Positions 1,233-8,215 of a stretch of DNA of 10,710 nucleotides are shown here, in pieces. Every line of letters starts with the position of its first letter. The first letter of the stretch is position 1. Position numbers and translations under genes: made by a program. This DNA is from Clostridia bacterium (lineage in GTDB: Bacteria; UBA6262; WVXT01; JAUXBS01). The notes under the pieces were generated by a model. The model was given only the letters and a program-made list of their open reading frames with translations. It was not told the DNA's origin and searched no databases. The stretch is from positions 1 to 10,710 of the forward strand of contig JAUXDE010000060.1 of the NCBI GenBank assembly GCA_030618495.1, given 5' to 3'.

Positions 1233-3410
1233 TCACATAAGCGGAGGCATGCCCAGGACAGGGTGATTAACCTTCTCCAGGTATTTAACGAGTTCTTCTG
1301 CTGTTATTGCATCATTTTCATCTGCAATCTTGTCAATCAGGTCCGGAACCCCTTCTTCTTCCGCTCTCCTCTTCAATTTTTCTCCAAGCGCTTCTTTTAA
1401 TTCCTTCGACATCCACACAATTCTTTTCAGTCCGCCGTCTGCGGGAATAAACTTTTTGCTAACCATGTACAGCCTTCCCACTCCCATGAATCCGGGGGTC
1501 TGAACGCCGCCGCCCACAGAACCGGCAAGCGTGCTGAAGGTCATGCCCACGGGCGTCTCACCGGAGAATTCGCGGTTAACAACCATGAAACCGTTTGCTT
1601 CAGGGACGAGCGCAATCACGCACTCAAAACAGCCGCATCCCGTTTCAGGATCTTCCATTATGGTGTATGCGTTGAATCTCTCTATGGTCTTGTTTGATTT
1701 CTGCTGAACGATATTATTAATACCCTCCCACTGGCCTTTTACCGCGTCAATGACCCTCCCCTTCTTTACGGGCTGGTTAGGGCCGGTCGGATTTATTTCA
1801 AAAGATGCCTTGCAGTCCATCCAGTTATAGGCGCCGCACAGTCCGAGTCTTTCAGGTTTAACGATGCATACATGGGTCGGAGCGAAACTCTGGCACAGTG
1901 TGCACGTGTAAAAGGTATCAACGCTCTCGTCAGTCATGCCCGCAACCCTCTCGTCGCGGAAATTGTATGCCTTCTGGGCTTGGGCCATAACCTTTTCCAC
2001 GTCTTCTTTTTTAGTGTGAAGAGTTACCTGGACCTTGTCAGCGATTTCACCGAACACATCATGAATGCAAGCATGAATTATAGTGCCAAAATGTTTTATT
2101 TTAAACCCTTTCTTCTGCGCGTCCTTGCTTATCCTCAACCAGTTAAGGTTTCGCTGTCCCATGTGCCATATTCCCATAGCCTCGTTTATGAACATATGAA
2201 GCTGTCTCTCTATGATAGGTTCAAAATCCTTCTGCATCTTCCTGCCTGCAACCTCAACCAGTATTCCCAGCGGCAATGCATCCCCTTCCTTTACATCGTC
2301 TATTTCAGGACCGACGACTTCTATCCTGCCGTCTTCAACTTCACTGCCATCTTTCATTCTCAAGTACTCAAACCCGGGAGCGTATTTGCCACCGAACTGG
2401 ATGTACATCTGTTCCTTCCTAACAACTTCCCCTTCAAACGCCGCTGCAAATGAAACAGGTATCGGTATCTTCGCCAGCTTCACCTTAACCCCGCGCACCT
2501 CAATGCAGGTGGGAACAATCTTCTTGTAATCAAGTTGTTTTACCAGGTGCTCATAGGTGCATATGCCCGTGGGCCTTATCTCGGGTATATCCGTATCAGC
2601 AATTATAGGGAATCCCATGTTAATTGCCCCGGCTCCCGTGGCGTACTTGACATCATCAACTTCACCCAAAGTAAGACCGAAAGCAAACACCCTGTCCTTG
2701 CAGTAGGTAAGGCACTTCAGCGCCTCACCCTTCTTATGTCCGCCAAAGGTCAGCGCGCCGCGTATTGCCCAGTTCAGCGGGTATATCCCCGACACGGTAT
2801 CCCTGCCGTAAGGCACGATGTAGTTGTCCCAGCCCATTTGTACCTTTTCCTCCATCAACTGGTCTATGATACTCTTTCCGTTAGTTGAAGAACCGACGAA
2901 TACGAGGATATTCCTCTGCTGGAACTCTCGTACTATTTCAACAGCTGTTTTATTGTCAGGCGCCGCCCCGAGAATTGCCGCAAATCCCGGCATCCTCCCG
3001 TCTACTAACTTTATACCAAGCGTCCTTAATATCGTATCAGAGAAAAACCCGTTGCAGTCAGACTGCGGTTCCTGTTCGTAAAGATATCTCAGGGCAACTA
3101 TTATTTCCTCAGACAAAAGCGCTGCCATGCCCGAATCAAGCGTATCCCCAAGGAATGGAAGCCATAAATGCTCGGTCGGCTCTTTCCTTAATAATGATTT
3201 TGCCTCATCAAGCACCGGGACTATGTCCCCCAGTACTTTTACCTCGGCCCCGAGCAGGGCATAAGCCATGGGTAAGTAAAAAGCTGTATCCGGGAACTCA
3301 ACCTTCTGGTCCTTCCCTTTTTCCTTGATGGCTTTAGTTAAAAAGTCATCCGCTTCCTTGACAAGTTTATTAGCGCCTCTTATGGCGGCTGCAGCAACTA
3401 TTTTTGACAT
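1233..3410 (-). CDS. acsB: Acetyl-CoA synthase (CODH/ACS alpha subunit)
   Basis: Condenses CO from CO dehydrogenase, a methyl group from the corrinoid iron-sulfur protein and CoA into acetyl-CoA, the final step of the Wood-Ljungdahl pathway. At 725 residues it is nearly as long as the Moorella enzyme (729). The A-cluster ligands are all present: C503, C506, C515 and C525 for the 4Fe-4S cluster, and the Cys-Gly-Cys motif C592/C594 for the distal nickel, with C506 also bridging to the proximal nickel. These sit at a constant offset of three from Moorella C506/C509/C518/C528/C595/C597. F509 matches the gating Phe512. The N-terminal domain of about 310 residues, which binds CO dehydrogenase and is missing from the archaeal form, is present, so this is the bacterial type. 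A strong AGGAGG (3416-3421) lies five bases before the ATG. It follows cooS by 51 nt. Confidence 0.97.
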   Translation of the reverse strand: MSKIVAAAAIRGANKLVKEADDFLTKAIKEKGKDQKVEFPDTAFYLPMAYALLGAEVKVLGDIVPVLDEAKSLLRKEPTEHLWLPFLGDTLDSGMAALLSEEIIVALRYLYEQEPQSDCNGFFSDTILRTLGIKLVDGRMPGFAAILGAAPDNKTAVEIVREFQQRNILVFVGSSTNGKSIIDQLMEEKVQMGWDNYIVPYGRDTVSGIYPLNWAIRGALTFGGHKKGEALKCLTYCKDRVFAFGLTLGEVDDVKYATGAGAINMGFPIIADTDIPEIRPTGICTYEHLVKQLDYKKIVPTCIEVRGVKVKLAKIPIPVSFAAAFEGEVVRKEQMYIQFGGKYAPGFEYLRMKDGSEVEDGRIEVVGPEIDDVKEGDALPLGILVEVAGRKMQKDFEPIIERQLHMFINEAMGIWHMGQRNLNWLRISKDAQKKGFKIKHFGTIIHACIHDVFGEIADKVQVTLHTKKEDVEKVMAQAQKAYNFRDERVAGMTDESVDTFYTCTLCQSFAPTHVCIVKPERLGLCGAYNWMDCKASFEINPTGPNQPVKKGRVIDAVKGQWEGINNIVQQKSNKTIERFNAYTIMEDPETGCGCFECVIALVPEANGFMVVNREFSGETPVGMTFSTLAGSVGGGVQTPGFMGVGRLYMVSKKFIPADGGLKRIVWMSKELKEALGEKLKRRAEEEGVPDLIDKIADENDAITAEELVKYLEKVNHPVLGMPPLM

Positions 3411-3461: not shown

Positions 3462-5369
3462 TTACTTAGTATACATCATTGGTCTTAATTTTAGTTCCTT
3501 TCTTTTCTTATTCATGTGTTCTATCATGAGCTGAGCCCCTTTAACCGGGTCAGCTTCAAAAACAAAGTTTGCGCCTACCAAATCCTTGATTTTATCGTAA
3601 ACGAGTTCTGATACCTCTTTGCTGCCAAGAACCGGAAGTGATGGATTAAGCACGGTAAAAGCGCCTGACGCTATTACGTAAAAACCAATTGAAACCGCCT
3701 TCTCGGACATCCACTCGGGAGCCGCTCCCGCTATAGGCATATCGGAAATATCCTCGCCAAGCCCGCCTTCCTTAACCATGTTTGTCAGTACCATCAGTAT
3801 CCTGCTTATGTCAACGCATGAACCCAGGTGCAGGACAGGAGGAATGCCAACCGTATCACAGATTTCCCTTAGCCCTTTGCCGCAGTACTCCAATGCCTTC
3901 TCGGAATCAAGCAGTCCCGCCTTGGCGTCCGCAATTGCGGAACATCCGGTGGTCACCAGTATAACGTCATTTTTTAACAACTCTTTTGACATTTCAACGT
4001 GACCGTAATCATGCTGTATCTTCGTATTGTTGCATCCCACGATTGCAGCCGCGCCCCTTAACCTTCCCGAGATTATGGCATCGTTTAACGGCCTGTAGGT
4101 CGCCCTGTACTTCCCTCCTAGTATGGTAGATACGTTCTCGGCAGTAAATCCCGCAACCATGTCTGTTGTTTCTTCCGGTATAACAATCCTCTTCTTGTTC
4201 CTGTTCTTGAAATTCTCAACAGCCATCTTCACAATTTTCTTTGCAATGGGCAGCGCCTCTTCCTCGCTGAACTGGATGTGCTCAACGTTCGGGAACTTTG
4301 CCTTCGGTGAAGTTGAAATAACCTTGGTATGGTAACAACTTGCTACCTGTCCTATTGCCGGCATTATACATTGCACGTCCACCAGCATTAAATCCACAGC
4401 CCCCGTTGCAATGGCAAGCTCCTGCTGAAGAAAGTTACCGGCTATGTGTATTCCGTGCCTCATCAGTATTTCATTTGCCGTGCAGCATATACCCGCCAGG
4501 TTTATACCTTTCGCCCCGTTATCTTTGGCAAGTTTCAACAGCTCCTTGTCCTGCGCCGCGGCAACTATCACGTCGGATAACGTAGGCTCATGGCCGTGAA
4601 CAACGAGATTGACCTCGTCTTCCTTGAGCACGCCAAGGTTCACCATGGAGCGAACCGGCTTGGGGCTGCCGAACATCACGTCGGAGAGTTCCGTGGCAAT
4701 CATGGAACCTCCCCACCCGTCGCCAATGGACGTTCTCAGTCCATGCATGATTAAATGTTTTGCATCATTGTCAACCCCTATATGGGTCCTGTGCATTACC
4801 TCAACGATTTCCCTGTCGATGCCCCTGGGCATAATTCCGAGTTCCCTCCATATCTTTTTCCTCGGCTCCGGCGCCCTCTGAACGAATTTAAGCTCTCCGT
4901 GCTGCTGGCCGAATTCGGCGAACAATGTTTCCGCAACATCCTTTGCAATCTCATTCTTCTTCCTACCATCAGTTTTTATTCCCAGTTCCTTCGCAAGAGT
5001 TTTAAGTTTTTTCTCATCCTTGATTTCATAGCCTTTTGTTTTACCCTCGGCAGTCATTAATAACGTATGCGCAATATCCCTGCCGTGGTCTGAATGCGCG
5101 GCAGCTCCACCCGCTATCATTCTTATTAAATTCCTTGCCACTATAATATCAGCAGTTGCCCCGCAGACGCCCCTGTCAGGCCCTTCCCCGAACGGGTCTA
5201 TCCTGCAGGGGCCCATTGTGCATATCCTGCAGCATATCCCAAGTTTTCCAAAACCGCACTGTGGCTGTAAAGCGTCAAAACGGTCCCATGCAGTTGAGAT
5301 ATTCTCTTTTTCAGTTATTTCAAGCATCTTCCTGGATGCCTTATCAATTGTCCTGTCATCACATTTCAT
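3462..5369 (-). CDS. acsA: Anaerobic Ni-Fe carbon monoxide dehydrogenase catalytic subunit
   Basis: A homodimeric Ni-Fe-S enzyme (CooS/AcsA) that interconverts CO2 and CO and, beside acsB, feeds CO into acetyl-CoA synthase. It has 635 residues, the usual length. D-cluster cysteines C38 and C46 bridge the dimer; C47, C50, C55 and C69 bind the B-cluster. The C-cluster set is H260 in HGHEP, C295/C296 in GICCTANE, C334, C446, C476 and the nickel ligand C518 in LGSCVD. Proton-transfer residues are conserved: H92 in AHSDHGRD and K557 in EWMSEKAVSIG, corresponding to His93 and Lys563 of Carboxydothermus CODH-II. With every ligand present it should be active. The ATG at 5369 has GGGAGG (5378-5383) eight bases upstream. 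It lies between its maturation ATPase cooC (19-nt gap) and acsB, so a role in the CODH/ACS complex is more likely than stand-alone CO oxidation; no hydrogenase or CooF genes are near. Confidence 0.97.
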   Translation of the reverse strand: MKCDDRTIDKASRKMLEITEKENISTAWDRFDALQPQCGFGKLGICCRICTMGPCRIDPFGEGPDRGVCGATADIIVARNLIRMIAGGAAAHSDHGRDIAHTLLMTAEGKTKGYEIKDEKKLKTLAKELGIKTDGRKKNEIAKDVAETLFAEFGQQHGELKFVQRAPEPRKKIWRELGIMPRGIDREIVEVMHRTHIGVDNDAKHLIMHGLRTSIGDGWGGSMIATELSDVMFGSPKPVRSMVNLGVLKEDEVNLVVHGHEPTLSDVIVAAAQDKELLKLAKDNGAKGINLAGICCTANEILMRHGIHIAGNFLQQELAIATGAVDLMLVDVQCIMPAIGQVASCYHTKVISTSPKAKFPNVEHIQFSEEEALPIAKKIVKMAVENFKNRNKKRIVIPEETTDMVAGFTAENVSTILGGKYRATYRPLNDAIISGRLRGAAAIVGCNNTKIQHDYGHVEMSKELLKNDVILVTTGCSAIADAKAGLLDSEKALEYCGKGLREICDTVGIPPVLHLGSCVDISRILMVLTNMVKEGGLGEDISDMPIAGAAPEWMSEKAVSIGFYVIASGAFTVLNPSLPVLGSKEVSELVYDKIKDLVGANFVFEADPVKGAQLMIEHMNKKRKELKLRPMMYTK

Positions 5370-5388: not shown

Positions 5389-6111
5389 TTATATTTTAAC
5401 CATTTCCAGCATATCTGAAAATACTTTCATATCATCAATGTTGATTTTATCTATTAAATTTTTATTATAATTAATAAATGCCAATACGTCAAGCCCTAAG
5501 GTTTTTTTCATTATGAATTTTCTATCATTCTCGTCGCGAATTTTGTTACCTACAATAAAACATTTTTTTATCTTTAAATCATCCGCAAGCTTTTTAATCC
5601 TATAAGCCGTTTCAATGCTCCTCAGGCTCGGCTCCACCACTACAAGCAGGGCATCAACGCCGCCGGACGTACCCCTGCCAAGATGTTCCACTCCCGCTTC
5701 CATGTCCATTAGCAGTATATCTTCCCGCCCGACAATAAGGTGGGTAAGCAATGCCTTTAAGAGGGCGTTCTCCGGACAGTAACACCCGGTTCCCGCCTTC
5801 TTTATCCTGCCCATCACCAGCAGTTTTATCCCGTTGTGTTCCACGCAGTACTTCCCGGGTATGTCATCAACCCTGGGATTCATGTTAAAAAATCCCCCTT
5901 TTCTACCCGCGCGTTCTTCAACAAGTTCCTTCATTTCAGCGATAGGGATAATTTTATCCGGTTCGGGGAATCCCAGTGTTGCAGCCAGGTTGGCGTCAGG
6001 GTCTGCATCAACAGCTATTGGGTTCTTGTTTTTTTTAACCAGGGCCATCAGCAGTCCCGCTGATAGCGTTGTCTTTCCCACTCCACCTTTGCCCGATATA
6101 GCTAACTTCAT
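5389..6111 (-). CDS. cooC: CO dehydrogenase nickel-insertion ATPase CooC
   Basis: A cytoplasmic MinD/ParA-family P-loop ATPase (240 residues) that uses ATP-driven dimerisation to help insert nickel into the CODH C-cluster; acetogen homologues are also called AcsF. It starts with the deviant Walker A motif GKGGVGKT (residues 7-14, lysines K8 and K13), followed by switch I around DADPDANLA (35-43), the C-x-C metal motif C110/C112 at the dimer interface, and the DMEAGVEHLGRG switch II region from D136. The C-x-C motif separates CooC from general MinD or NifH relatives. Its ATG overlaps the stop codon of the upstream methyltransferase gene as ATGA, which implies translational coupling. AGGAGG at 6123-6128 is eleven bases from the start, rather far. 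cooS follows 19 nt later. Confidence 0.95.
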   Translation of the reverse strand: MKLAISGKGGVGKTTLSAGLLMALVKKNKNPIAVDADPDANLAATLGFPEPDKIIPIAEMKELVEERAGRKGGFFNMNPRVDDIPGKYCVEHNGIKLLVMGRIKKAGTGCYCPENALLKALLTHLIVGREDILLMDMEAGVEHLGRGTSGGVDALLVVVEPSLRSIETAYRIKKLADDLKIKKCFIVGNKIRDENDRKFIMKKTLGLDVLAFINYNKNLIDKINIDDMKVFSDMLEMVKI

Positions 6112-7160
6112 CCGTTCGTATTCCTCCTTAATCCATCCGATACTTCCTTGTTCAACTTAAATACTTTTTCTGCAAGTTCAACTGCCATACTGCCAGTGCC
6201 GCAGCTTGGTGTTATCAGGCATTGATTCCATAATTGCTCTCTTGATAAGCCTTTATTTACAAGCATATCCACGCCATTGTTAAACCTTTTTATTAAGTTT
6301 TCACGTGTTTCCTTTTCTATGTTTTCAGAGCTCGGCACAATACCCCAGGCAAGGCATTTACCATTATCAAAGTATTCCTTTAGCTTTTCCGGGTAAAGGG
6401 TCATTGATTCTATATAATTGTACGCATCGAAACTTATAATATCAATATCCGTTTCCATAAGTATTGACCAATCCGTGTTACCACAGCAGTGAATGCCCGC
6501 AATCGCCTTTTCTGAATGGATTGCCGTGATTACCTCGTTTAAATGCTTTATTATATCCTCTCTGCTTATTGACACGAATGAGGAGCCAAAGGAGCTAAGG
6601 TAGGGTTCATCTATAAACATTATTACATTTGAAGTTCCGGTACTCTCTGAGAGCATCCTTACCTGCCATCTTGACTTCATGGCGCAGGTCTTTACAACAG
6701 TATCGCCAAGCTGTTCATCGTATAAAATGGATTTATTGTTCTGGTCTGTGACTGTAAGGCCGAAAGTCACGGGCCCCGTTACCTGGCCTTTAATCCATTT
6801 CATACCAGCAGGCTTTCCCGACGATTTAATTTCCTCAATCAATCCGTAAAGCCCTGAGGCGTGGTCCTGGCTTATTTTGAAGTACCCGACATCATCGGCT
6901 ATTATTTTCTCATAAAATTTTTCCAGCTCTGAGGTTACGTCACCATCCGTCTTAAAATACACCTTCTTCCTGTTTTCATCTATGACCAGGCATGGCATGT
7001 TTTCGCTGTACTGCGCGTACATGTTCTCCCTGAAATTCAGATTTGGAAGCTGCGGCCACACGGGTACTTCCGGCATTAAATCCAGAACCAGCCTGCAGGC
7101 TTTTTTCACATTATCGTGCGGCATACTGCTTATTGCCGTGGCAAGACATCCGAATTTCAT
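6108..7160 (-). CDS. mesB: MetE-core corrinoid-dependent methyltransferase, likely MesB-type methionine synthase
   Basis: A 350-residue UROD/MetE-superfamily barrel. It has the zinc site of cobalamin-independent methionine synthase in short form: H224 and C226 in HCCGN and C320 in TPSCGTG correspond to the His-x-Cys and final Cys of MetE. DEPYLS (184-189) resembles the MetE DEP motif. The N-terminus (ATAISSMPH, then PVWPQLP at 33-39) resembles folate-independent core methionine synthases of anaerobes. MesB enzymes, for example from Dehalococcoides, methylate homocysteine and are thought to take the methyl group from the Wood-Ljungdahl corrinoid protein; its place beside cooC-cooS-acsB fits. 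The residue aligning with the MetE zinc Glu appears to be D245. The ATG at 7160 is preferred because GGGAG (7169-7173) lies eight bases upstream; an ATG at 7196 overlaps manA and lacks a ribosome site. A catabolic methyltransferase of the MtaA type is the main alternative. Confidence 0.75.
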   Translation of the reverse strand: MKFGCLATAISSMPHDNVKKACRLVLDLMPEVPVWPQLPNLNFRENMYAQYSENMPCLVIDENRKKVYFKTDGDVTSELEKFYEKIIADDVGYFKISQDHASGLYGLIEEIKSSGKPAGMKWIKGQVTGPVTFGLTVTDQNNKSILYDEQLGDTVVKTCAMKSRWQVRMLSESTGTSNVIMFIDEPYLSSFGSSFVSISREDIIKHLNEVITAIHSEKAIAGIHCCGNTDWSILMETDIDIISFDAYNYIESMTLYPEKLKEYFDNGKCLAWGIVPSSENIEKETRENLIKRFNNGVDMLVNKGLSREQLWNQCLITPSCGTGSMAVELAEKVFKLNKEVSDGLRRNTNG

Positions 7161-7185: not shown

Positions 7186-8154
7186 TCACCTGGCATAGCT
7201 CAATAATATTACTGTCGGTTTTTCAGGAACAATGGTATAATTCTTACAAATTGCGGGAATAAGAACCGATTCACCCATTTCGCATTCAAGGGTAAAATCA
7301 GCGCATTTCACTAGAAATGAACCTTCAATTACACTTATTACCCTGAAATTACCGCTGCAACTAAATACCTTATCCTCTTTTAGTTCATGTTCCTCAATAC
7401 TGAAGAAATCACAATCAATGAGCCTGGCATGCCTGTTTGCGCCATCATCAATCCACTCTTTTTTCACCGCAGAAGGGGCATAGTCATTAAAATCCATAAC
7501 ATCAATTGCTTCCTTTATATGAGTAGGCCTTGGCTTCCCGTCAAATCCAAGCCGTCCCCAGTCATACAATCTGAAAGTCGTATCCGAATTCTGCTGTATT
7601 TCATTTATTATTATGTCCTTTTTCAGCGCGTGAAGCCTGCCCGAGGGTAAAAAAATAATATCGCCTTTCTTAACTTCCACTTCATGCATGCACTTTTCAA
7701 GAGAACCTTCATTTTCCGCCTTCATGAACATATCCCTTGTCGTCCCTTCCTTCAGTCCGGCTATCAGTTTTGCTCCCGGCCGGGCATGCATGACATACCA
7801 TGCCTCTGTCTTGCCTAACTCTCCGGGCTTGTAGCGGTTTGCGTATTCATCGTCAGGATGGACCTGTACGGAAAGGTCGTCTTCAGGACCTATAAACTTA
7901 TACAGTAACGGAAATTTTGAGTACTTGTGCCCGTTAAATAGTTCCCTGCTGTAATTTTCAATCAGCCAGCGGAGTGATTTGCCGGCAAGCTCTCCATTGC
8001 TTACTATTGATATGTCATTATCATGATCAGAGATTTCCCAGCTTTCACCGATCTTTACAGTAGGGCCATAATCCTTCTTGAGATATTTTTTAAGTTTTTG
8101 GCCGCCCCAAATAAATTCCTTTAATATAGGGCTGAACTTCATGGGATATAGCAT
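7186..8154 (-). CDS. manA: Mannose-6-phosphate isomerase, class I
   Basis: A cytoplasmic zinc enzyme interconverting fructose-6-phosphate and mannose-6-phosphate, the entry to GDP-mannose and mannose-containing polysaccharides. The 322 residues match the short Bacillus-type class I enzymes. The cupin zinc ligands are visible: Q97 and H99 in VQVHPDD, E117 in GKTEAWY and H175 in GRLHAL. Substrate-site R195 follows in TTFRLYDWGR. The C-terminal cupin half (about 240-322) is complete. The ATG at 8154 has GGAAAG nine bases upstream (8164-8169); the in-frame ATG at 8142 has none. It is the first gene behind the minus-strand promoter, 25 nt before the MesB-like gene, an unusual partner for CODH/ACS genes. 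Its role probably belongs with the divergent sugar genes at 8260 onward. Confidence 0.93.
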   Translation of the reverse strand: MLYPMKFSPILKEFIWGGQKLKKYLKKDYGPTVKIGESWEISDHDNDISIVSNGELAGKSLRWLIENYSRELFNGHKYSKFPLLYKFIGPEDDLSVQVHPDDEYANRYKPGELGKTEAWYVMHARPGAKLIAGLKEGTTRDMFMKAENEGSLEKCMHEVEVKKGDIIFLPSGRLHALKKDIIINEIQQNSDTTFRLYDWGRLGFDGKPRPTHIKEAIDVMDFNDYAPSAVKKEWIDDGANRHARLIDCDFFSIEEHELKEDKVFSCSGNFRVISVIEGSFLVKCADFTLECEMGESVLIPAICKNYTIVPEKPTVILLSYAR

Positions 8155-8186: not shown

Positions 8187-8215
8187 ATTTTAATTGAATT
8201 TTGTCTAAAAGTCAA
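8187..8215 (-). promoter_or_regulatory. Sigma70-type promoter of the manA-acsB-GGDEF operon
   Basis: On the minus strand, TTGACT (8210-8215) is followed after exactly 17 bases by TAAAAT (8187-8192). Transcription would start near 8180, leaving a leader of about 25 nt with GGAAAG before the manA ATG. No other equally good promoter was seen within the operon, so all six genes probably depend on it. Confidence 0.65.

Follow-up and report, generated by a model that had tools for sequence, protein, structure and literature searches.

The MesB protein of D. mccartyi, also termed core-MetE (cbdbA481, DET0516), is the closest described counterpart of the protein reported here. It has ~345 residues, no folate-binding half, and a zinc site formed by His215, Cys217, Asp236, and Cys312 (Deobald et al., PMC7005905), and it is encoded in a genome that lacks MetE and MetH but has the corrinoid iron-sulfur protein (CoFeSP) pathway; AcsE, MetF, and CODH are missing there. 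According to a published prediction that extends to D. mccartyi, MesB takes its methyl group from CoFeSP. Homologues of at least 130 bits were counted as MesB by Price et al. (2021; PMC7857596), whose text reports that each of the 123 proteomes with a qualifying MesB also had AcsC or AcsD, and describes operon linkage of mesB for methanogens, with acsC-acsD; Figure 3B apart, that text does not mention linkage of bacterial mesB to CODH/ACS genes. Two further points of comparison are MesD, which is aerobic and needs MesX, and MetE, which has an extra folate-binding half.

In the window, the 10,710-nucleotide stretch of Clostridia bacterium DNA that was analysed, a gene for a protein of this type (P0001) lies in a run of genes read from the minus strand:

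7186..8154, minus strand: manA, mannose-6-phosphate isomerase class I, 25 bp upstream of mesB (TIGR00218, 146 bits, cut-off 116)
6108..7160, minus strand: mesB, predicted MesB-type core methionine synthase, 350 aa, with zinc ligands H224, C226, D245, and C320 and homocysteine-site residues S12 and D184
6108..6111, minus strand: ATGA, 4-bp overlap of the mesB stop and the cooC start
5389..6111, minus strand: cooC, MinD/CooC-type ATPase (CODH nickel-insertion type), 240 aa, neighbour of cooS
3462..5369, minus strand: cooS/acsA, anaerobic CO dehydrogenase catalytic subunit, 635 aa (TIGR01702, 709 bits, cut-off 478)
1233..3410, minus strand: acsB, acetyl-CoA synthase alpha/beta subunit, 725 aa (NF040764, 1030 bits, cut-off 800)

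The mesB reading frame is intact, and its start at 7160 is preferred to an alternative ATG at 7196, which would make it 12 codons longer, because GGGAGAG lies upstream of the former and relatives begin at the same position. The ATGA overlap with cooC, pointed out in the original prediction together with the frame itself, is seen in the junction sequence GGAGGAATACGAACGGATGAAG, and the GGAGG site ahead of cooC falls within the 3' end of mesB. Successive genes of the run, in the order manA-mesB-cooC-cooS-acsB, are separated by 25, -4, 19, and 51 bp, and a consensus scan of the coding strand found no terminator-like sites between manA and acsB. The first gene of the run is probably manA, the order being the same in a genus relative (G001); a promoter-like site precedes it at 8187-8215, although the site is weak evidence, this AT-rich stretch having many such matches. 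Judged by its spacing, mesB probably shares a transcript with cooC, cooS, and acsB, so that the branch point from which a methyl group would pass to acetyl-CoA or to methionine would be encoded together. The claim that mesB is embedded in a CODH/ACS operon needs qualification: the gene is indeed second in the run, but acsC and acsV are found on a separate contig of the draft assembly. In being linked to CODH/ACS genes at all, the locus resembles the methanogen operons described in the text of Price et al.; those, however, are archaeal and place mesB by the CoFeSP subunit genes, whereas the bacterial mesB here lies by cooC-cooS-acsB. It differs too from D. mccartyi, whose mesB is found with metK, ahcY, and MTA-recycling genes.

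A reference MesB for sequence comparison was taken from genome G106, found by searching Dehalococcoidia genomes. We take this genome to be that of D. mccartyi strain 195, an assignment based in part on the genes next to its mesB. These neighbours (metK, ahcY, mtnP, and mtnA) fit the account of Deobald et al. (PMC7005905). With the G106 protein as the phmmer query, P0001 matched at 256 bits and 38.6% identity over 345 residues, as compared with the 130 bits that Price et al. used to count MesB homologues. The two proteins also fall within one 86-row clade (SH-aLRT 100) of a 91-row tree, apart from a five-row paralogue group; this tree came from a short search without bootstraps and has no MesA, MesC, MesD, HemE, or MtaA rows, for which profile scans and structural ranking stand in. 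P0001 is an ordinary member of the described MesB family and not a new kind of system.

The paralogue group (L162, L167, L168, L169, and L170) scores ~128-149 bits to P0001 and keeps the zinc ligands, but HCC is replaced by HLC, and a Cys-rich stretch, 'PARCC', is inserted where the fourth ligand lies.

It had been anticipated that the gene would be labelled a uroporphyrinogen decarboxylase, and wrongly so. That expectation finds no support in the family searches, as Pfam assigns P0001 to no family at E<=1, PF01208 (URO-D) and PF01717 (MetE/MesA/MesD-type) included. Its sole NCBIfam match is PRK00957 methionine synthase, at 41 bits and below the cut-off. Among 44 relatives, PRK00957 was matched by 33, MtbA by six, PF01717 by six, and PF01208 by a single one, weakly (E 0.004). 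A two-domain MetE was considered and rejected, as the protein, at 350 aa, has neither an N-terminal folate-binding domain nor a PF01717 match.

Searching solved structures by sequence, with either P0001 or the 44-row profile, gave chance matches only, and we therefore compared folds. An AlphaFold2 model built from the 44-row alignment (mean pLDDT 93.8, pTM 0.93) is a single barrel of ~350 residues without a folate-binding half, as the original prediction had it. The top solved chain in VIA-align was MesD (3RPD; Z 25.1, rmsd 3.2, 283 aligned residues), followed by MetE (Z ~24), UroD (20.8), MtaA (19.5), and BHMT (13.1), and Foldseek ranked MetE first. By its predicted fold, P0001 is confirmed as a member of the UroD/MetE superfamily, with MetE and MesD nearest. 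MesD and the MetE catalytic domain (e.g., 1XDJ and 3L7R) thus provide the best structural matches (Z 24-25) and share the zinc site, although their identity to P0001 is only 13-16%.

The zinc ligands are H224, C226, D245, and C320. Three of these (H224, C226, and C320) had been recognized in the original prediction; the fourth, D245, was absent from its list. D245 aligns with Asp236 of D. mccartyi MesB, and the spacing of the ligands (H-x-C, then Asp at +21) matches, all four lying at nearly the same intervals in the two proteins; in MetE the fourth ligand is Glu. The four ligands are invariant in the 44-sequence alignment and in all 122 homologues collected. Two further residues, S12 (G/S-S-x-P motif) and D184 (DEP motif), are the equivalents of MetE Ser433 and Asp599, the MetE numbering being assigned by motif; D184 is present in 122 of 122 homologues, and the S12 position is Ser in 116 of them.

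These results bear on the possibility that P0001 belongs instead with the uroporphyrinogen decarboxylases or the methylcobamide:CoM methyltransferases (HemE, MtaA, or CmuA type). The superfamily fold is common to all of these proteins, with Z scores of 20.8 for UroD and 19.5 for MtaA, and one relative does match PF01208, but the scores for MesD and MetE are higher, the PF01208 model does not match P0001 itself while PRK00957 matches most of its relatives, and the complete MetE-type zinc set is retained. We regard such an assignment as extremely improbable. To the extent that sequence can decide, the MesB-like identity first proposed is upheld both by the grouping with D. mccartyi-type MesB and by the structural ranking.

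We then consider the remainder of the genome, a draft assembly of 1.69 Mb that is 98% complete and in which families were searched one by one. Whether it lacks MetH and full-length MetE had been raised as a check, and the answer is affirmative: PF01717 has no match in this assembly, PF02574 (the MetH/BHMT-type homocysteine-binding family) has none in six genomes of the phylum, this one included, and across the six PF01717 gives nothing above the cut-off, its single sub-cut-off match, in G005, being MesB itself. P0001 is present in a single copy, and mesB appears to encode the only methionine synthase of this bacterium. MetF is present, as is AcsE, both of which are missing from D. mccartyi. 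Contig C132 encodes AcsC, AcsV, and a second CooC, and on C79 the gene for acetate kinase is followed by that for AcsE. Although acsC is present, acsD was not found in the assembly; because the order in G001 is cooC-acsD-ackA-acsE, the gene probably falls where the assembly breaks between C132 and C79.

The HcyBio route is the probable source of homocysteine, given that the HcyBio homocysteine synthase (PF01837) is matched at 512 bits while PF01053 yields weak, mostly partial matches of 33 bits or less. A MetB/MetY route was also considered; it is not supported, the PF01053 matches being read as other PLP enzymes. On contigs C44, C123, and C46 of this genome (G000) there are seemingly two HcyBio (DUF39) genes, one complete and the other divided between two contig pieces.

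Taken with the family assignment, these features make it very likely that the mesB product is a MesB-type core methionine synthase that takes its methyl group from a methylated corrinoid, most plausibly that of AcsCD. In the proposed mechanism, a single TIM barrel resembling the catalytic half of MetE would use zinc, held at H224, C226, D245, and C320, to activate homocysteine as a thiolate, which would then take the methyl group from the methylated corrinoid. The likeliest donor would be AcsCD, the corrinoid iron-sulfur protein of the Wood-Ljungdahl pathway, in its methylated form; AcsE could methylate it with methyl-THF, or AcsB with acetyl-CoA, and the HcyBio enzyme would probably supply the homocysteine. 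A more speculative extension, which we think improbable, is that MesB is a dedicated subunit bound to the CODH/ACS-CoFeSP assembly, in which case a single complex would determine how methyl groups are divided between acetyl-CoA and methionine; run in reverse, it could let methionine donate methyl groups for the synthesis of acetyl-CoA.

A zinc-dependent methyltransferase with the MesB fold might instead use a different donor corrinoid protein or a different thiol acceptor. Price et al., in the text of their paper, suggest that other corrinoid proteins may serve genomes that have two or three copies of MesB, there are paralogue groups that share the zinc ligands but differ in sequence, and MtbA/CoM-methyltransferase models weakly match the six family members counted above. 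P0001, however, is a single-copy protein that groups with the characterised MesB and not with the paralogues, its gene neighbours are CODH/ACS genes, and the genome has homocysteine synthesis genes yet no other methionine synthase that we could find. Another donor or acceptor is, on this evidence, unlikely.

The case for methionine synthesis from CoFeSP also draws on gene order in other bacteria. The genus relative G001 keeps manA-mesB-cooC-cooS, and in G002, an order-level relative, mesB, cooC, cooS, acsB, acsC, acsD, and acsE are on one strand of a single 32.6-kb contig. The sister family has the order mesB-pabB-like-pabC-like-cooC-cooS (names that NCBIfam cut-offs support in part), preceded in G004 by folD and fchA, as if genes for one-carbon cofactor synthesis and for CODH/ACS were on a shared transcript. 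On the mesB contigs of G002, G004, and G005 (L007-L009), mesB is found beside pabB-like and class IV aminotransferase genes.

Over a broader range, CODH/ACS core genes lie within 8 kb of mesB in 25 of 80 bacterial loci from at least eight named phyla, a count that is not a family-wide frequency because the 80 named loci are those most similar to P0001. When the rows labelled on the tree are used, the window included, 24 of 78 are linked to CODH/ACS, and these again represent at least eight named phyla; a minimum of nine trait changes on the tree would account for this distribution. Roughly estimated, 1-2% of genomes would have a randomly chosen gene within 8 kb of a CODH/ACS cluster. The linkage in at least eight bacterial phyla is what is new here, the earlier gene-order support in the text of Price et al. 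having come from methanogens, and it offers broader bacterial support for the predicted transfer from CoFeSP.

Tight pairing of mesB with cooC is also found in Elusimicrobiota, Calditrichota, Latescibacterota, Myxococcota, and others, and could indicate that the protein has an accessory role or a part in CODH/ACS maturation, for instance together with CooC, and has kept the MetE fold but lost the reaction. Against this, the protein retains the S/D substrate residues as well as every zinc ligand, and the genome would be left with no methionine synthase at all. Furthermore, orthologues elsewhere are away from CODH/ACS: in Chloroflexota the same mesB clade is often beside mtnA, mtnP, ahcY, and metK, a neighbourhood that fits methionine/SAM metabolism and argues against an accessory role, which we consider very unlikely. 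For MesB as a methionine synthase, the neighbours come from both ends of the proposed reaction, CODH/ACS genes in some genomes and SAM-cycle genes in others (often in Chloroflexota), which makes the CoFeSP-to-homocysteine step a well-supported target for direct assay and the putative mesB operon described here a good source operon for that purpose.

A CooC/MinD-like ATPase gene lies directly 3' of mesB in several phyla (L048, L049, L051-L054, L059, L098, L102, and L103). The ATPase that adjoins mesB often belongs to a subfamily distant from CODH-type CooC (~67-127 bits), and it sometimes precedes a second, typical CooC.

One further observation concerns acsB of G002 (L199:1171-5007, minus strand, corresponding to G002:C82:18670-22506), which contains an in-frame intein of ~550 aa with a TIGR01445 (NCBIfam) match above the cut-off and a LAGLIDADG-like stretch. 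A search of the available literature for an intein in acetyl-CoA synthase found no paper. The intein sits inside the conserved CTL/CQSF motif, at the active-site cysteine of acetyl-CoA synthase.
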